DNA of 35,643 nt from Planctomycetaceae bacterium (lineage in GTDB: Bacteria; Planctomycetota; Planctomycetia; Pirellulales; Pirellulaceae): the NCBI GenBank assembly GCA_007121535.1, contig SKKK01000705.1, forward strand, positions 1 through 35,643, in the 5' to 3' direction. Of this stretch, positions 21,068 through 34,170 are shown piece by piece; within the stretch, counting starts at the first letter, position 1; every line of letters begins with the position of its first letter. Made by a program: the position numbers and the translations under genes. The notes under the pieces were generated by a model, which saw only the letters and a program-made list of their open reading frames with translations, did not search any database and had not been told where the DNA came from.

Positions 21068-21183
21068 GACGCGTTAGCACCGTTCGAGAAATAACTGTCC
21101 GATGTTCCCTCGCCCCTCGTGGGAGAGGGCAGGGTGAGGGGGCAAAAAGTGCGTCAGTTATTTCTCGAACGGTGCTTAGCGTC
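21068..21183. repeat. MITE-like element with 22-bp perfect inverted ends
   Basis: Arms at 21076-21097 and 21155-21176 are perfect reverse complements beginning AGCACCGTTCGAG. They extend outward imperfectly to GACGC and GCGTC. The 57-base interior contains TTCCCTCGCCCCTCGTGGGA followed by GAGGGCAGGGTGAGGGG. No coding capacity is seen. It lies in the gap between the DUF1549 gene stop and the uup start, upstream of uup. The tip resembles TAAGCACC but the rest differs, so it is a separate family. Confidence 0.75.
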
Positions 21184-21245: not shown

Positions 21246-23387
21246 TTAGCGTCGACTCCGTTCGGCAAACAGGATCTGCCACAATTCCCGAACGGCCAAG
21301 TGATCGTTCATGCGATCGGCCAGTACCAACTTGGCGGCGGTCGCCTCTCGGGTGGTCGGCTTGCGATCCAACACGGCGCGAAACAGATGCTCGACTTTCT
21401 TGTCCGCCGACATGTCACTGGCCGCCAAGCGATCCAGCCACAGCGGCCCGATCATGGATTCGCTGCCTTGCGTATCGATGATCTGCGGGACGGTCACCTG
21501 GGAAGGCGTCCAGGATCTTCGAGCCAGCTTACTGGCATGCAGCGTCGGTCCGGTGGGCCGCGTGCGGACCGCCACCATCAACGATCGGTGCAGATCCATC
21601 GATCGATCGGGCTCTGTGTAAAAGCGAGCGAACAGCGGCGCCCCCCCCGTCTCGGGCGAGTCCAGCCAGCTCTCCGGAGTTCGCTGATCCGACACGTCGA
21701 ACGCGCGGCTCAATACGATCCAGCGGGTCAAGCGTTTCAAGTCGAAATCATGAGCCGCCAATTGTTCGCTCAAACCTTCCAGCAATTCAGGATGCGATGG
21801 ACGGTGGTTCGGCCCGGCGCCGTCGACCGGCTCGATGAAACCGAACTTCAACAGCTTGGCCCACACCCGATTGACGGCCGCCCGACGAAAGTCAGGCGAA
21901 CGAGTCAACAATCGAGCCAATTCCTGCCTCCGATGAACGTCCGCCAACAAACCACTCTTGGGAATGCTCTCCGATTTAAATCTCGGATAAGCTGCGCGCA
22001 AGCGCCCATCCTGACCGGGATAGAAGATTTCCGCATCCTGAGCGATGCCTGTGCCTCCGTGGAAGTCGACCTCTTTCACAGCAGCAAAGGAATCCTCCGA
22101 AGCGCGATGGATCCGCATCTGCTGAAAGAATGCGTTGAGTTGCCAGAACTCTTCCTGATTCCAACCGCTGGCAGGATCATCATGGCATTGGGCACACACC
22201 AATTGTTTGCCGAGCCAGACCCGCGAAACGCGATCGGTTGCCGCGATCGAACCCTCGGTGCCCCAGGCAGCCGCCAGAAAATTTGCGGCTGGATCGTGAT
22301 CGGGCGCTTCCGGATCGCACGAACCAGATGCCGAAATCAATTCGGCCGTCCATTCGTCGTACGACTTGTTCTCCTGGATCGCAGCCGCCAGATATTGTTC
22401 GAGACCTTGCCGATCGACACCCCATTGTTCGGGTTTGTCCGCAGCGGACCCCAACAGAACATCCGACCATCGTTGCGACCAGTAACGAACATAATCGTCA
22501 CTTTCCAACAGACGGTCTACCAATGCCGCTCGACGCTGATCCGGCGCTTCGTTCAGAAACTGTCGCAATTCGTATTCGGTCGGATCTCGACCGACCAGTC
22601 GCCGATAGACACGCTGACACCATTGATCGTCCCCCGGCGATGCAGCCGGTGTGACGCCATGCTGATGCCATTGCTGCTCCAGCATCCGATCGACAAAGTC
22701 GATCATCCGAGCGTCGTCCCAGGGCTCGCTGCGAACCTGAGCGAGCGCCGGCCGATCCTCCACCGGCGTCTCCTCGATCGGTGCATCAGGCGATTCCATG
22801 GTCGATGCGATCGCTGCCGGGTCCTCTGGCGCCAAGAAGTCAGAATCAGGCTCCCACGGTGCTGGCATCTCGCGGTGCGGCAGCGCGTCGAGCTGGCTGT
22901 CCGCCTGATTCGGTTCGAGCGGAACAACGGGCGAGGGGGTTGGCGACTGGACCAACATCGGGGCGCGCGGCCCCAAACCCATGCGGCTCATATAGATCCC
23001 TGCCGCGAACAATACCAGCAAGACACCGCTCGACACGGCCGCGGTCCAGCCCATGACCCACCGTGTCGAATGGCGGCGGGCCGTCGCACTGCGGCCAATT
23101 CCCACCGCTCCACCGGTCCCGGCCGCCGCACTCTGCCGCTCTGCCCGGCGATCCGCCGCATCAACCGCAACCACCGGCGATGCAGCAGGCGGCAACGGCG
23201 AAACGGGCCAAGATACCACGGGTGACACCGTGGGTGGAGCCTCGATCCGCTCCGGCGATTCCCCAGGCGAAACGCGACGGCGATCCAGTTCCTGCAGGAT
23301 CTTGGCGCTCAGGTCCGGCGGATACTGGCCACCCAGCACCTCCTCTAATCCCGATTCCAAAATCCTGTCTTCGTAGTCGCCGTTCAT
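21246..23387 (-). CDS. Membrane protein: anti-sigma-like N-terminus plus exported DUF1549 and DUF1553
   Basis: The 713-residue protein overlaps the ECF sigma gene by ATGA, so the two are translationally coupled. Residues 1-108 are cytoplasmic and begin with LEEVLGGQYPPDLSAKIL, a motif seen in planctomycete proteins encoded next to ECF factors. One transmembrane helix spans about 110-133. Outside lie a Pro/Glu-rich linker (140-220), DUF1549 (about 225-430) with a CAQCH motif (Cys398, Cys401, His402), and DUF1553 (about 480-690). CxxCH is the pattern used for covalent haem in c-type cytochromes, but haem binding by this domain is not shown here. I infer a membrane-bound regulator of the sigma factor with an external sensory or enzymatic part. 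Confidence 0.78.
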   Translation of the reverse strand: MNGDYEDRILESGLEEVLGGQYPPDLSAKILQELDRRRVSPGESPERIEAPPTVSPVVSWPVSPLPPAASPVVAVDAADRRAERQSAAAGTGGAVGIGRSATARRHSTRWVMGWTAAVSSGVLLVLFAAGIYMSRMGLGPRAPMLVQSPTPSPVVPLEPNQADSQLDALPHREMPAPWEPDSDFLAPEDPAAIASTMESPDAPIEETPVEDRPALAQVRSEPWDDARMIDFVDRMLEQQWHQHGVTPAASPGDDQWCQRVYRRLVGRDPTEYELRQFLNEAPDQRRAALVDRLLESDDYVRYWSQRWSDVLLGSAADKPEQWGVDRQGLEQYLAAAIQENKSYDEWTAELISASGSCDPEAPDHDPAANFLAAAWGTEGSIAATDRVSRVWLGKQLVCAQCHDDPASGWNQEEFWQLNAFFQQMRIHRASEDSFAAVKEVDFHGGTGIAQDAEIFYPGQDGRLRAAYPRFKSESIPKSGLLADVHRRQELARLLTRSPDFRRAAVNRVWAKLLKFGFIEPVDGAGPNHRPSHPELLEGLSEQLAAHDFDLKRLTRWIVLSRAFDVSDQRTPESWLDSPETGGAPLFARFYTEPDRSMDLHRSLMVAVRTRPTGPTLHASKLARRSWTPSQVTVPQIIDTQGSESMIGPLWLDRLAASDMSADKKVEHLFRAVLDRKPTTREATAAKLVLADRMNDHLAVRELWQILFAERSRR

Positions 23388-23905
23388 GCCATCTTCCGTT
23401 CAATGCAGGCTCGCAACTGCTGTTTGGCTCGCTGCATCAGATTCTTCGCCCCATGTTCCGAAATCGCCAGCATTGCTGCGATCTCCGAGCGTGACGCCCG
23501 ATCGCGGAACCGCATGTCCAGCGCCATGCGGGCCCGATCGGTTAGTTGCTGAACGCACTCTCTCAATGCATCCAGCCGTGCCTCTCCTTCATCGTTTCCG
23601 GCCCAGTCATCCCAAGCCCGATCGAACTGCTCGATGTCTTCCACTGCCGTCACTTTACCCGATCGTCGACGTACCGTCACCAATTGGTTGTAGGCCACAC
23701 GCCGCAAATAAGCGGCGGTGGCTGCCGGTCCGTGGTCGACGAACGAGTGCTGCAAAACCGCCAGGAATGTTTCCTGCGTCAAGTCGTCCGCCTCGGCGGG
23801 ATCGCACCCTAAAGCCCGCAAATACCGCCAGATGCCCACCTGGTAACGCTCAATCAGCGCCGCTGGATCCAGATCAGCCCTGTCCTGGGGGATTGCAGGC
23901 TTCAT
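23384..23905 (-). CDS. ECF-type RNA polymerase sigma factor
   Basis: The 173-residue product starts at ATG 23905 (MKPAIPQDRADLDP); an upstream in-frame extension has no homology. Region 2 reads IERYQVGIWRYLRALGCDPAEADDLTQETFLAVLQ in overlapping parts, with the DDLTQETF box typical of ECF factors. Region 4 has RMALDMRFRDRASRSEIAAM followed by a recognition helix near LAISEHGAKNLMQRAKQQL. It directs RNA polymerase to an unknown set of promoters. The stop overlaps the start of the DUF1549/DUF1553 membrane protein. A DUF4129 protein gene diverges 220 bases away and is a candidate target. Confidence 0.88.
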   Translation of the reverse strand: MKPAIPQDRADLDPAALIERYQVGIWRYLRALGCDPAEADDLTQETFLAVLQHSFVDHGPAATAAYLRRVAYNQLVTVRRRSGKVTAVEDIEQFDRAWDDWAGNDEGEARLDALRECVQQLTDRARMALDMRFRDRASRSEIAAMLAISEHGAKNLMQRAKQQLRACIERKMA

Positions 23906-24125
23906 CAGTTCGCTCAAAAAGAAAAACGCGCCAAGGTTTGTAATGTACTCACATAATACGCAGATCCGGTGCCCGATTATTGCCTGAAGGCACCCGAAAG
24001 TCTGGTTACCGTTGATCTGTACGTGAATTCTAACAGTTTTCCACCGATGGTTTAGTATGGCCGACCGAGGTAAAATTGGTAGGAGTGGAAGTTGTTCCCC
24101 GTGGGATTTCGGTTGGCGAATCTTC

Positions 24126-26177
24126 ATGACTCGGCCTCAGAAAACACTGACCGATTACGCCGTGATCGCAATCAGCCCAGCGCTGATCATGGTCTTTATC
24201 GGCAGTTTGGTATTTTTCTTAATCGAGGCGTTCTACCAAGGGCAGTATGACGGTCGTATACGTTGGGCTTTCGGGTGGTTTGTTTTCGCGTCTGTGCTGA
24301 TCGGCCGGATTTCGATCGATGAAGGGCGTCAGTACGCCAGCCTGTACGCCATCCCCTTGGCCTTGGCCATGCTAGCAGTCCTGTCTCGATTCGTGGCCTT
24401 CAGTGGACCGCTGGCGGGGTTAAGTCTTCCCATCAACGCGGGGTTGGTCGTGTTGGTTCTATGGTGCGCCGATCGGCTGACTTGGGATTGCACCGTGATC
24501 GACGATCGCAAGGATGTGTCCGGCCAGGGACTGTTGCAAACGGCCGGCTTGGACCGTCATGGTGGCTCGGACCAGACGGTTCAGCCATCCCCGTCGGAAG
24601 GGTCGATGGATGTGGATACCGACGCCACGTCGTCACGGAATTCGTTGCCGGAAAAGACCCTGTGGCAGCAGTTCTGCGAACATCGACAACGGCCGCACGC
24701 CCCCGGTGTCTGGGTGATCTACATTTCACTCGGCGCCCTGCCACTGTTTGGCTTCGGTCAGCGTTTGATCCCGGCAACGGATCTCGAATCCAGACGCTAC
24801 GCGTTCTGGCTGCTCTGCTACTTCGTGGCCAGCGGCCTGGGCCTGCTGCTGAACAGCAGCTTTCTTGCCTTACGACGGTACTTGCGACAACGCCGTTTGG
24901 AGATGCCCTTGCAGATGGCGGGCGTTTGGCTGGGTACCGGGTCGGTCATCATCGTCCTGTTGCTGGTATTGTGCGCCGCTTTGCCACGCCCCCATCCAGA
25001 GTATTCGATCACCCATGTCGACTGGTCCATCGGATCCCCCGAAGGGCTTCGTCCTTCGCGTTACGGAGTGGGGGAACAAGGTGCGGAAGATCCGGATCGC
25101 CAGGAGCCAGGGCGGGATTCCCGAACGACCGCAACCGATCAAGCGACGCAAGATGCCGGATCCGGTGACGCCAAGCCGCAACGCGAAACAGGCGGCGAGG
25201 GGCCAGCGGGCGAGGGACAGGGCAGGGAAGGGCAGGGTGCTGAGAGTCAGCCCGGTGAAGGGCAGGGCGGAGACGAGCGAACCGGAGAAGGGCAGGGCGG
25301 CGAGCGGCAGACCGGCGAAAGGCAAAGTGACGAAGGGCAGGGGGGCGAAGGGCAGGGGGGCGAGCGCAAGGACCGCTCGCGAGACGGCGGCCAAGATCAG
25401 CAGCAGCGGCCGGAACGCAAGTCGGGCGCAGATCCGGGTGAGAGGCCGTCAGATAACGGTTCAAACGATCAACAGCGCGAAACCGGTCAAGCGAACGGCG
25501 AGCGTCAGGACGACCGAGGACGATCATCGGAGGATTCGCAAGCTCGATCGTCAGAGGACTCGCAGCGGACAGGGCAGGGGGGGCGGTCGCCCAGCCGATC
25601 ACCCGTCCAGCCCCGAGCGATGCTCAATTCGCTGTTCAGCGGGATGGCGCATGTCATCAAATGGTTGTACTATTTGGCGTTCTTCGCCCTCGCAGCGTAC
25701 CTGGTATGGCGATATTGGGAGTCGATTCGCACAGCGGTCGTGGGGTTCCTTCAAGCGATTCGCGAGTTGTGGGAGAGGCTTCTTGGTGGTCGTACCAGCG
25801 TCTCGAAATCCATGCCGACCCAAGCTTCGTTGCCCCCTGAACCCGCCCCCCGGCCGTTCGCTGCTTTTGCCGACCCGTTTACCACGGGGAAAGCCCGGCA
25901 TTTGGCACCACGCGAACTGGTGCTGTATACATTCCAGGCGTTGGAGGCTTGGGCTCGCGAACATCAACTACCCCGGATGGATGACCAGACACCTCATGAA
26001 TTTGCGGGCCAACTGGGGCGAATGGCTGGTGATATCGGCCGCGAGGCGAATCGATTGGCCGACCTGTATTGTGCAGCCGCGTATTCCAACGTGCCGCTGG
26101 CGTCATCCAAGGTAAGTCGCTTGGAGAAATTGTGGACAGCGATGAGAAACGCTCCTCGAGCATCGACATCACCGTAA
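24126..26177 (+). CDS. Polytopic membrane protein with Gln/Gly/Glu-rich linker and DUF4129
   Basis: The 683-residue protein starts at ATG 24126, chosen because a membrane segment begins shortly after (YAVIAISPALIMVFIGSLVF). About seven transmembrane helices lie in residues 12-300, ending at LPRPHPEYS. A strongly low-complexity region (about 355-495) is made of GEGQGG-type repeats with Glu, Gln, Arg and Asp. Another helix (about 507-530) precedes the C-terminal DUF4129 domain (APRELVLYTFQALEAWAREH to about 675). DUF4129 proteins usually sit with MoxR, DUF58 and transglutaminase genes; none is here. Function is unknown. It is transcribed away from the ECF sigma gene across a 220-base gap. Confidence 0.75.
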   Translation: MTRPQKTLTDYAVIAISPALIMVFIGSLVFFLIEAFYQGQYDGRIRWAFGWFVFASVLIGRISIDEGRQYASLYAIPLALAMLAVLSRFVAFSGPLAGLSLPINAGLVVLVLWCADRLTWDCTVIDDRKDVSGQGLLQTAGLDRHGGSDQTVQPSPSEGSMDVDTDATSSRNSLPEKTLWQQFCEHRQRPHAPGVWVIYISLGALPLFGFGQRLIPATDLESRRYAFWLLCYFVASGLGLLLNSSFLALRRYLRQRRLEMPLQMAGVWLGTGSVIIVLLLVLCAALPRPHPEYSITHVDWSIGSPEGLRPSRYGVGEQGAEDPDRQEPGRDSRTTATDQATQDAGSGDAKPQRETGGEGPAGEGQGREGQGAESQPGEGQGGDERTGEGQGGERQTGERQSDEGQGGEGQGGERKDRSRDGGQDQQQRPERKSGADPGERPSDNGSNDQQRETGQANGERQDDRGRSSEDSQARSSEDSQRTGQGGRSPSRSPVQPRAMLNSLFSGMAHVIKWLYYLAFFALAAYLVWRYWESIRTAVVGFLQAIRELWERLLGGRTSVSKSMPTQASLPPEPAPRPFAAFADPFTTGKARHLAPRELVLYTFQALEAWAREHQLPRMDDQTPHEFAGQLGRMAGDIGREANRLADLYCAAAYSNVPLASSKVSRLEKLWTAMRNAPRASTSP

Positions 26178-30864: not shown

Positions 30865-31008
30865 TTCGTTGCAGCCGGAAGCTGCTTTCGAGTCTTTGGA
30901 TGTAAGATGCTCGCACGGTGCGCGCATCTTTGTAGGTTGGGACTCTGTCCCGACCCGGTCGGGTCGGAGACCCAACCTACTTCGGTTGCAGCCGGAGGCT
31001 GCTTTCGG
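30865..31008. repeat. Direct-repeat-flanked palindrome cluster
   Basis: A copy of about 28 bp (TTCGTTGCAGCCGGAAGCTG with CTTTCGA) at 30865-30892 recurs with two or three changes at 30981-31008. Between them are a GATGCTCGCAC/GTGCGCGCATC palindrome (about 30906-30928) and a GTAGGTTGGG/CCCAACCTAC inverted repeat (30932-30980). Confidence 0.65.
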
Positions 31009-31149
31009 AATGATAATCGAGCTGTGCATCGGATTGTACCTTGGCAGTCGAGGTTTGACGAGCGGTGGATACGGGGTGATCGATCCGTTTTGATCGACTA
31101 TAATTGGCATCATGAAGAGCGTACGTTTCCCGTTCCTGCCGATCCTTCG

Positions 31150-34100
31150 ATGGTAAGTGTCATGTATCTGCATACGGTCTTTGTTCGATCCGCGTCCTTG
31201 TTCCTTCGTCCCGAATCGCGATCGCATGGAAGCATCATCACCTTGCTGTCGGTCGCCTTGCTGATATTCGCGGTGCTTTTTTCTTCGGAAAGGGCTCGAG
31301 CGGATGTCGATTTTCAACGCGATATCCGGCCGATCCTGTCCAATCATTGTTTTCGCTGCCACGGCCCTGACGATCAGACTCGCGAAGGCGGCCTGCGCCT
31401 GGATATGGCATCGGATGCGACGGCCGATCGGGGCGGTTATCGGGCGATTGCTGCGGGGGATGCCGCGGCCAGCGCGATCATCGACCGGATGGAGTCCGAC
31501 AATCCGTACCTGCAGATGCCGCCACCTGACAGCGGTCCCGGGCTGACCCCTGAACAGATCCGTATGGTCAGGCAATGGATTGACGACGGCGCGGTCTACG
31601 AGCCTCATTGGGCCTTCCGCCCCATCCAGCGGCCGGAGCTACCCCGGGTCCAACCCGGGGCCGATGCGGACGAGATGCCCCGGGGGCATCACCCGATCGA
31701 TGCGTTTGTACTGGACCGGCTGCAACAGGCCGGGATCGAGCCGTCGCCTCAGGCGGACCGTTCGACCTTGATCCGCCGGCTGTTCCTGGACTTGACCGGT
31801 CTGCCGCCGGAACCGGAACAAGTCCGAACGTTTCTGAACGATCGCGAGCCCGAGGCTTACGAACGAATCGTGTCGATGGCGTTGGCGAGTCCTCGTTATG
31901 GGGAACGATGGGGTCGGCATTGGTTGGACCAGGCTCGGTATGCGGACACGCATGGCTATACGATCGATTCGGAACGCTCTATCTGGCCGTACCGGGACTG
32001 GGTGATCCACGCGCTGAATCGGGATATGCCGTTCGACCAGTTCACCATCGAACAACTGGCCGGGGACCTGCTGCCCGATGCAACGGAAGATCAACGGATC
32101 GCGACGGGATTCCACCGTAATACGCTGGTCAATCAGGAGGGCGGGACGGATGCCGAACAGTTTCGCAGCGAGGCCGTGATGGATCGCGTGAATACGACGG
32201 GGGCCGTGTGGCTGGGGCTGACCTTCGCCTGTGCTCAATGCCACACCCACAAATACGATCCGATCACGTTGGACGAGTACTACCAGATGTTCGCGTTCTT
32301 CAACAACACTCGGGACGTGAACAGCGCCGCTCCGACCATCCAGGTGATCGACGATCGAACTCGGGAACGTTTGGAGGAACTGGACCGGATGATCGAAGAC
32401 GCGCGGCAGCAGTTGGCCGATTACGACCGACAGCAGGAAGCATCGACGACCGAACAACCAGAAACCGAGCGACCGGTCGAGTGGCAGGCGTTGGAGGTGG
32501 AAGAGTTTCGTTCGGCTGCCGGTGCGTCTTGGCAGCGATTGGAAGACGGGTCGATCCTGGTCAGCGGCCTTGATGGCGATCAGGATCAGTACACCGTTAC
32601 GCTCGCATCACCAGAGACTGGCGTCACCGCCATCCGACTGCTCGCGATGACGCACCCCGATTTGCCGCGAAATGGTCCCGGCCGAGCGGGCAATGGGAAT
32701 TTTGTGCTCAATGGCATCCAACTCTTTGGCGACGACAGCGATCCGGTTCCTTGGTTGCACGCCACGGCCGACCATTCACAGCGGGACTATCCGATCGAAG
32801 CGGCCATCGACGGTGATCCGGCGACCGGTTGGGCGATCAATGTCAGCAGCGGTAATATGAACGTCGACCGCACCGCGACGTTGATGCTCGCTGAACCGCT
32901 GACCGTGGCTCCCGATCGGCGCCTGGTGCTTCGGATGGAGTTCGGTCCGCGTCCGGCTCGCTACAATCTTGGCCGTTTTCGCTTGGAGGCAACCAGCGCG
33001 CCGCTGACCCGACTGGGTTTACCCGACCCGCAGCGGGCGCGATTGGCGAACGAACTGAAGCAGTGGGAAGATCAGCGGAAGCAGTTGGCTGCCGGCATTC
33101 CGACCACCTTGGTGATGCAGGAGTTGGACCGCCCGCGTCCGACCCACATGTTCATCCGAGGCGACTTTTTGCGACCGGGAGATGCGGTCCAGCCGGACGT
33201 GCCCGCGGTCTTGCCACCGTTGCCGACCGGCGATTCCCGGCCCACGCGTTTGGATTTGGCCCGATGGCTGGTCGCGCCCGACAACCCATTGACCGCGCGG
33301 GTGACGATCAATCGCATTTGGATGCGATACTTCGGGCGAGGGTTGGTCGAAACGGAAGACGATTTCGGTATGCAGGGCAGCCTGCCGACGCATCCCGAAC
33401 TGTTGGATTGGCTGGCTGCCGAGTTCATCGAGAGCGGTTGGTCGATGAAGCATATGCATCGCTTGATCGTCACCAGCGCCACGTACCGCCAGTCGTCGCA
33501 CCAGCGGCCGGATCTTGACGAGATCGACCCGCTGAACAAACTGTTGGCCCGCCAAACGCGATTGCGAGTCGAAGCCGAGATCGTTCGCGACTTGGCGTTG
33601 GCGGCCAGCGGGCTGCTGGACCACCGGATCGGCGGCCCCAGCGTCTACCCGCCACAACCTGCCGGCGTGTACGCTTTTACCCAACGTTCGGCCGCCTGGC
33701 CGACCAGCCAGGGACCCGACCGCTATCGCCGCGCTATGTATACGTTCTTCATGCGCAGCGCTCCCTATCCGTTGCTCAGCACCTTTGACACACCCGATTT
33801 CAGCACCACGTGCACGCGCCGCGAGTCCTCCAACACACCGCTGCAGTCCCTGGCGGTGGCCAACGACCAGGCCATGGTCGAGTTGACGCAGGGACTTGCT
33901 CGGCGCTTACTCCTGTCTGCCGATTCGGATCAGCAGCGTATCGAGTTGGCCTACTTGATTTGCTTTTCACGACTGCCGACGGATTTCGAACGCCAACGCG
34001 TCCGGCAGTACTTGAGCCAACAGCAAGAGCAATTCTCCGAGCATCCGGAGGATGCCGAGAAGTTGTCTGGCAGTCCGTTGCCCGATGGACTCTCCGTCGA

Positions 34101-34170
34101 GCAGGTCGCTGCCTGGACCGCCGTCGCCCGCGTACTGATCAATCTGGACGAGTTCATCACCCGCGAATGA
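31150..34170 (+). CDS. Exported PSCyt1-DUF1549-DUF1553 protein
   Basis: From ATG 31150 the protein has 1006 residues; ATG 31162 is an alternative and no strong ribosome-binding site is seen. A Sec signal or anchor covers about 28-50. The PSCyt1 domain follows with FQRDIRPILSNHCFRCHGPD (Cys67, Cys70, His71) and ends near QMPPPDSGPGLTP. DUF1549 (about 175-420) contains CAQCHTHKYDP. An inserted beta-rich, F5/8C-like segment (about 455-610) precedes DUF1553 (about 700-970). These exported proteins are a planctomycete hallmark, usually followed by a DUF1501 gene; none follows here. The CxxCH motifs suggest haem, not proven. The TGA stop is the first three bases of a repeat element. Confidence 0.87.
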   Translation: MVSVMYLHTVFVRSASLFLRPESRSHGSIITLLSVALLIFAVLFSSERARADVDFQRDIRPILSNHCFRCHGPDDQTREGGLRLDMASDATADRGGYRAIAAGDAAASAIIDRMESDNPYLQMPPPDSGPGLTPEQIRMVRQWIDDGAVYEPHWAFRPIQRPELPRVQPGADADEMPRGHHPIDAFVLDRLQQAGIEPSPQADRSTLIRRLFLDLTGLPPEPEQVRTFLNDREPEAYERIVSMALASPRYGERWGRHWLDQARYADTHGYTIDSERSIWPYRDWVIHALNRDMPFDQFTIEQLAGDLLPDATEDQRIATGFHRNTLVNQEGGTDAEQFRSEAVMDRVNTTGAVWLGLTFACAQCHTHKYDPITLDEYYQMFAFFNNTRDVNSAAPTIQVIDDRTRERLEELDRMIEDARQQLADYDRQQEASTTEQPETERPVEWQALEVEEFRSAAGASWQRLEDGSILVSGLDGDQDQYTVTLASPETGVTAIRLLAMTHPDLPRNGPGRAGNGNFVLNGIQLFGDDSDPVPWLHATADHSQRDYPIEAAIDGDPATGWAINVSSGNMNVDRTATLMLAEPLTVAPDRRLVLRMEFGPRPARYNLGRFRLEATSAPLTRLGLPDPQRARLANELKQWEDQRKQLAAGIPTTLVMQELDRPRPTHMFIRGDFLRPGDAVQPDVPAVLPPLPTGDSRPTRLDLARWLVAPDNPLTARVTINRIWMRYFGRGLVETEDDFGMQGSLPTHPELLDWLAAEFIESGWSMKHMHRLIVTSATYRQSSHQRPDLDEIDPLNKLLARQTRLRVEAEIVRDLALAASGLLDHRIGGPSVYPPQPAGVYAFTQRSAAWPTSQGPDRYRRAMYTFFMRSAPYPLLSTFDTPDFSTTCTRRESSNTPLQSLAVANDQAMVELTQGLARRLLLSADSDQQRIELAYLICFSRLPTDFERQRVRQYLSQQQEQFSEHPEDAEKLSGSPLPDGLSVEQVAAWTAVARVLINLDEFITRE

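Follow-up and report, generated by a model that had tools for sequence, protein, structure and literature searches.

A predicted sigma/anti-sigma switch in Planctomycetota with a DUF1549/DUF1553 ectodomain that appears paralogous to its probable target protein

The stretch of DNA analyzed here (referred to as the window) comprises 35,643 nucleotides from a Planctomycetaceae bacterium (GenBank assembly GCA_007121535.1, contig SKKK01000705.1), and is contig C102 of a 9.3-Mb assembly (706 contigs, 95.3% complete). It carries, on the minus strand, a gene for an extracytoplasmic function (ECF) sigma factor followed by that for a membrane protein with a DUF1549/DUF1553 ectodomain (Table 1), and the relatives retrieved with the sigma factor carry Planctomycetota names. 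An ECF sigma factor with a membrane anti-sigma factor is a known kind of system, and a sequence-only reading of this DNA had proposed such a pair with the ectodomain as the sensor. Our results pointed, with a probability of approximately 0.8, to an autoregulated sigma/anti-sigma switch, in which the ectodomain is paralogous to the protein that is probably the target in most relatives.

Since only regions 2 and 4 were found in the sigma factor (Pfam), it was assigned to the ECF type; the top match in NCBIfam, TIGR02989, was below the cut-off (77.4 of 124.55 bits). The reading frame is open back to 24127, and a start at 23905, or no more than 12 bases from it, is favored because of the promoter-like site upstream and the starts in relatives. 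Cys 117 and Cys 167 were invariant in 21/21 aligned sigma factors. The earlier claims that the stop codon of the sigma gene and the start codon of its partner share ATGA, and that the partner combines an N-terminal motif, one membrane helix, a DUF1549/DUF1553 ectodomain, and CxxCH, were borne out by the sequence, Pfam, and an AlphaFold model. This model, built from 50 sequences (mean predicted local distance difference test score, pLDDT, 78; predicted template modeling score, pTM, 0.65), contained two N-terminal helices (residues 5-19 and 27-39; pLDDT blocks of 57, 75, 77, and 81 across residues 1-40), a single membrane helix that was also detected by hydropathy, and an ectodomain with pLDDT mostly >90 from residue 221 to approximately 590. 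The N-terminus would be cytoplasmic and the ectodomain outside. The LGGQYPPDLSAKIL motif falls inside residues 5-39, the DUF1553 match covers just profile positions 1-93 of 244, and the only Cys residues of the protein are 257, 357, 398, and 401.

Table 1. Coordinates and basis of the features at the sigma factor locus of the window
Feature	Position	Strand	Basis
ECF sigma factor, 173 amino acids	23384-23905	minus	Pfam Sigma70_r2 E 1.6e-10 and Sigma70_r4_2 E 2.4e-9, both above cut-off; 21-row alignment
ATGA shared by the sigma stop and the anti-sigma start	23384-23387	minus	sequence
Predicted membrane anti-sigma factor, 713 amino acids	21246-23387	minus	Pfam and conserved pairing
N-terminal two-helix motif, predicted minimal anti-sigma domain (residues 5-39)	23271-23375	minus	alignments, profile searches, model helices
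Membrane helix (residues 114-136)	22980-23048	minus	AlphaFold helix and hydropathy
DUF1549 (PSCyt2) part of ectodomain (residues 232-425)	22113-22694	minus	Pfam E 8e-38, 130.9 bits against a cut-off of 29.8
CAQCH (residues 398-402)	22182-22196	minus	sequence; C398, C401, and H402 present in all 50 sequences of the alignment
Partial DUF1553 (PSD1) (residues 486-575)	21663-21932	minus	Pfam E 3.3e-22, 79.5 bits against a cut-off of 28.5
Predicted ECF promoter GAGTAC-N16-CGTT upstream of sigma	23925-23950	minus	only exact match in window
DUF4129 membrane protein gene, divergent from sigma	24126-26177	plus	PF13559 E 1.1e-10

The partner was searched for in 40 genomes (including that of the window), and both proteins in 39 wider stretches; across these, the sigma gene repeatedly adjoined that for a membrane protein. 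Conservation of the pairing, on which the sequence-only reading had staked its proposal, was surveyed by scanning contigs from 84,980 species with the sigma factor alone, using the best 80 of 144 relatives (a selection that leans to close kin). A partner open reading frame (ORF) was present in 75 of the 80 loci; among the remaining five, four were cut by contig ends and one (L129) was recovered with a wider start limit. Of the 75 partners, several of which were also cut by contig ends, 56 carried both the motif and DUF1549, 10 only DUF1549, and 5 only the motif; the other 4 had neither according to the models but still carried a membrane helix and CxxCH. By eye, the N-terminus of motif-negative partners was mostly of the same kind, in a diverged form. 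Named members included those of Blastopirellula marina (L199), with the promoter motif described below in front of the sigma gene and DUF1501 behind the anti-sigma gene, and of Roseimaritima sediminicola (L146), in which the operon is present and the promoter motif is not. Because of this recurrence in many relatives, the pairing is not due to chance.

The N-terminal motif (consensus LEExLGGxxPPDLSxxIL, two predicted helices) contained invariant L14, E16, P24, and D25 in a 16-row alignment. A profile of 16 rows detected one convincing gene in the window's own genome (E 1e-18; the next at 0.8) and, at E 0.01, matched 28 of the 40 genomes, that of the window among them. A 19-row profile found the motif in at least 41 of the 392 phylum genomes, with at least 97 matches and up to 12 per genome, these being lower bounds with at most 19 candidates scored per genome. 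We inspected 60 of the 97 loci: 59 of the best 61 (the window and G020 being left out) and one weak match. An ECF sigma gene was located directly upstream of the motif ORF, on the same strand, in 60/60, at a distance of no more than 400 bases in 57 and, in the other three, beneath an open frame extending upstream over it; the background was 5 further sigma ORFs per 1032 genes in the sigma-scan and phylum loci. A membrane helix was predicted by hydropathy in 59 of these 60 proteins, and their ectodomains (Pfam) were of several types: vWF_A (15), YfbK_C (14), DUF1549 (6), FecR (5), LRR (3), and EF-hand (2). The initial idea that the motif was specific to a single-copy DUF1549 family was overturned by loci with VWA ectodomains and by the phylum search. 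VWA/YfbK proteins with the motif were found beside an ECF sigma factor in L114 (G010), L119 (G030), and 14/60 phylum loci, and probably represent another large anti-sigma family. In some anti-sigma candidates (L050, L054, and L260), the motif was present two or three times.

No Pfam domain was matched at the motif itself across the phylum members, bar one stray match (E 0.03), and the motif profile had no match among PDB chains up to E 10. Of the class I anti-sigma models (NF052375 and PRK13920), NF052375 (NCBIfam) gave weak matches in 28/60 phylum members; those listed were all below the cut-off, with a best score of 32 bits (100 needed), and those with positions spanned the motif and membrane helix. 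According to an excerpt of PMC7406223, class I domains average approximately 101 amino acids, and the zinc motif of this class (HxxxCxxC) was not found in the N-terminal domain of the window protein. The two-helix cytoplasmic domain of CnrY, the class II anti-sigma factor of CnrH, as described in excerpts of PMC7406223 and PMC4598750, resembles the model of the window protein; no sequence kinship between CnrY and the motif was detected by the PDB search above. As in FecI/FecR, the gene after that for the sigma factor encodes a membrane regulator, and FecR is among the ectodomains of the phylum motif proteins, but Pfam gave no match to FecR in the window protein. The motif and its own sigma factor co-varied (rho 0.28, compared with no more than 0.19 in 1000 trials in which motifs were shuffled among the paralogues of each genome), which shows joint inheritance and is not evidence of contact. 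We read the motif as a probable minimal anti-sigma domain, predicted to bind the sigma factor.

Word pairs (two words of four bases each, approximately 14-19 bases apart) were counted without bias and compared with shuffled sequences, which yielded a promoter-like motif. The top word pairs upstream of the sigma genes and upstream of the exported DUF1549 genes were both combinations of GAGT, AGTA, or GTAC with CGTT or CGCT, and the best pair was found in 30/97 sigma upstream regions (up to 11 in three shuffles) and 19/53 exported-DUF1549 upstream regions (up to 7 in shuffles). The pattern GAGTA(C/T)-N15-17-CG(T/C)T was located before the sigma gene in 56/97 loci and before the exported DUF1549/DUF1501 operon in 28/53, in either place in 72/97 and in both places in 12/53. 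It was absent inside the anti-sigma gene (0/88) and on the reverse strand (0/97 and 0/53), and the means of 200 shuffles were 0.14 and 0.09 for the sigma and operon sets, respectively. Among the phylum loci, it preceded 5/8 DUF1549-type sigma genes and 0/52 others; seven of these eight loci were new to the motif set and included all five matches, four of which were from one genus. A search for a promoter common to the non-DUF1549 systems found none, with GAGTAC in 0/52 and the best two-word patterns barely above one shuffle. In the window's own genome, the tight pattern was found at three sites (0 for a reversed control): that of the window, one before a NusG-like gene, and one on C56. With the looser pattern, this genome (G000) yielded 23 sites and the reversed control 4, from which no regulon is claimed. 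The site before the NusG-like gene was found in two genomes (G000:C568:41881-41907, L300; G001:C548:2982-3007, L296), and this gene is a candidate member of the regulon. From the positions of the motif, the sigma factor would regulate its own gene and control the DUF1549-DUF1501 operon.

The form of this operon was compared in 88 loci with distinct sigma factors and a partner, pooled from the relatives and named loci. The order exported DUF1549/DUF1553 protein, DUF1501 protein (identified by Pfam, E 2e-102), sigma factor, and membrane anti-sigma factor was observed in 47/88, whereas DUF1501 directly followed the anti-sigma gene without an exported copy in 9/88. The pair stood alone in 12/88, a group that includes the window with its two closest relatives as well as two systems of the VWA type; the partner was truncated in 8/88, and the remaining 12/88 were cut or unclear. 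No close DUF1501 copy was found in the window assembly, the best match being 247 bits with 37% identity, compared with 608-794 bits in the 9 loci. Since DUF1501 is absent from the locus in the window's clade while the sister species G002 retains the gene after the anti-sigma gene, this clade has probably lost the target operon; the assemblies are incomplete, but in the window an ABC-F-like gene lies within 230 bases after the anti-sigma gene.

The relationship between sensor and exported protein was analyzed in a tree restricted to full-length copies, comprising 64 sensors, 46 exported copies, and 8 further DUF1549 proteins. The tree came from a fast search with a single support value, and L169_SHORT and several sensors were on long branches. 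The exported copies, L169 aside, formed one clade (support 100); two sensors whose loci have no exported copy grouped with it (support 84), and more such sensors lay nearby. In the 34 loci with both proteins, the sensors diverged more than the exported copies in 561/561 pairs, with medians of 4.47 and 0.79 changes per column, respectively. CxxCH was kept in 62/64 sensors and 46/46 exported copies, whereas the longer CxxCHxHP was kept in 46/46 exported copies and only 23/64 sensors; the window sensor, with CHDDP, is of the changed kind. CHxHP was present in 8/9 sensors that alone accompany DUF1501, compared with 14/47 beside an exported copy; L047, counted among the 14, would shift to the first group, as its sensor is also followed by DUF1501 and preceded by only a distant DUF1549 pair. 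On the basis of this tree, the exported protein and sensor are paralogues. We read their history as follows: an ancestral membrane protein may have been both anti-sigma factor and partner of DUF1501, the exported copy arising later and leaving the sensor free to change.

In the mechanism that we propose, the predicted anti-sigma factor would keep the sigma factor at the membrane through its short two-helix N-terminal domain. Release of the sigma factor, by proteolysis or a conformational change, would follow from a signal at the ectodomain; the likeliest signals are the state of the DUF1501/DUF1549 process, its substrate, and its redox state. Once free, the sigma factor would drive transcription of its own gene and also of the DUF1549-DUF1501 operon in those genomes that have it, with GAGTAC-N16-CG(T/C)T as the promoter; this operon is taken as the target because of the shared promoter motif. 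The window and two close relatives, which lack DUF1501 at the locus, have probably retained the switch with another, small regulon. The interpretation of the sequence-only reading as a whole was partly supported: the pairing, translational coupling, recurrent motif, and promoter-like motif gave good support to a sigma/anti-sigma pair with a DUF1549/DUF1553 sensor, and a response of this sensor to haem or a substrate is possible.

Several observations weigh against this switch. The window partner had no match to anti-sigma models (Pfam, NCBIfam NF052375), and in L151 the downstream DUF1549 ORF has neither the motif nor a membrane helix. The promoter motif was missing from 25/97 loci; the looser pattern raised the counts to 58/97 and 31/53, yet it was also found in 5/88 intragenic controls. 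The motif was counted on the loci from which it was derived, although the unbiased word count and the new loci agreed with it. In the window itself, as well as in G001 and G003 (the latter two viewed at the locus only), there is no DUF1501 at the locus. The relation between CHxHP and the form of the operon (Fisher p 0.0015) is uncorrected for kinship and draws on only two independent pairs.

With regard to the signal, one version of the switch is that the sensor monitors its partner, a free DUF1501 protein or substrate complex being divided between exported and sensor copies. The paralogy of the two copies, the presumed DUF1549-DUF1501 target operon, and the 9/88 loci in which DUF1501 directly follows the sensor are in line with this proposal, whereas the window retains its sensor in an assembly without a close DUF1501 copy, and we regard it as tentative. 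A broader reading is similarly speculative: the two-helix motif may be an unrecognized anti-sigma domain of Planctomycetota that acts as a plug for many ectodomains, the DUF1549 sensor and exported protein may have split from one membrane protein that was both anti-sigma factor and DUF1501 partner, and the switch may sense the partner of its own product or its haem-bound state.

A haem at the ectodomain is possible, and the second version of the switch, in which a covalent haem c senses redox or gas and gates the sigma factor, is doubtful to a somewhat greater degree. The near-universal CxxCH of the sensors, its invariant residues (Table 1), and its predicted location on the outer side of the membrane are compatible with haem c. 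However, across the 50 aligned sequences, none of the columns that are invariant or nearly so holds a second His or Met, and a disulphide or metal site would equally be conserved. No Foldseek match reached E ≤0.001 for the window protein or the exported copy from Roseimaritima sediminicola (model with mean pLDDT 84 and pTM 0.80); P450 and catalase-peroxidase chains appeared at E >1, and cytochrome c was absent among the structural matches listed, all of which were weak. In a second look by structural alignment, phycobilisome linker domains were the top rows for both models, at Z <6 (for the window protein, Z 5.7, root-mean-square deviation 3.2, 119 aligned residues). Kinship with these linkers was considered and set aside, the evidence (PF00427 below the cut-off at E 0.0014, PDB profile E 8.7e-4, and these Z values) being too weak to use; the likeness may be a mere common arrangement.

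It is improbable that the partner is instead a redox or cytochrome-like protein anchored in the membrane, which is simply transcribed together with the sigma gene and controlled by the sigma factor, with the real regulator elsewhere. In 8/9 loci where the sensor alone accompanies DUF1501, it keeps CHxHP like the exported copies and may still serve as the DUF1501 partner, and an excerpt of PMC2754498 describes the Rhodopirellula baltica pair as regulator and target, but the motif also precedes unrelated ectodomains, with a sigma gene alongside in all 60 loci inspected, and the sensors change far faster than the exported copies, often without CHxHP.

Around the pair, the DUF4129 gene was confirmed to diverge from the sigma gene, as noted earlier from the sequence; among these close relatives, a DUF4129-like gene adjoins the sigma gene in G001 and G003 and is absent there in G002. 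Directly past the anti-sigma gene (21076-21176) is an element resembling a miniature inverted-repeat transposable element, with 22-nucleotide perfect inverted ends, of which at least 40 near-full-length copies (94-100%, that of the window counted) were found, with 40 of 136 candidates scored; its position is that of DUF1501 in the sister species G002. A second, large DUF1549 protein is encoded 7 kb away (30907-34170, PSCyt2 E 2e-90), and DUF1549 matches in the assembly totaled 16.

A link between an ECF sigma factor and a DUF1549/DUF1553 protein had already been suggested for R. baltica, according to an excerpt of PMC2754498 citing Studholme 2004; PMC2754498 gives 41 DUF1549 genes for this organism. 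In the same excerpt, RB10049 (ECF sigma) and RB10051 (PSD1 and PSC2) are likewise a sigma-linked DUF1549/DUF1553 system and possibly the same one as here; RB10051 is treated there as a regulated protein and not as an anti-sigma factor. Planctomycete-specific cytochrome-like DUF1549/DUF1553 proteins share the Pfam domains and, in relatives, the DUF1501 neighbor, and differ from the window protein, a sigma-linked membrane protein with these domains as its ectodomain. No earlier description of the motif, the promoter, or the kinship between sensor and product was found in the literature searched, with three key publications on ECF factors and planctomycetes outside that search.

Planctomycete genomes contain many DUF1549/DUF1553 genes of unknown function and many ECF sigma factors. 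The motif would point to the anti-sigma factor, the promoter to the targets, and the sensor is a copy of a probable target, so that both questions may be testable in one genetic system; together, the motif and promoter would provide a signature for annotating such switches across the phylum.

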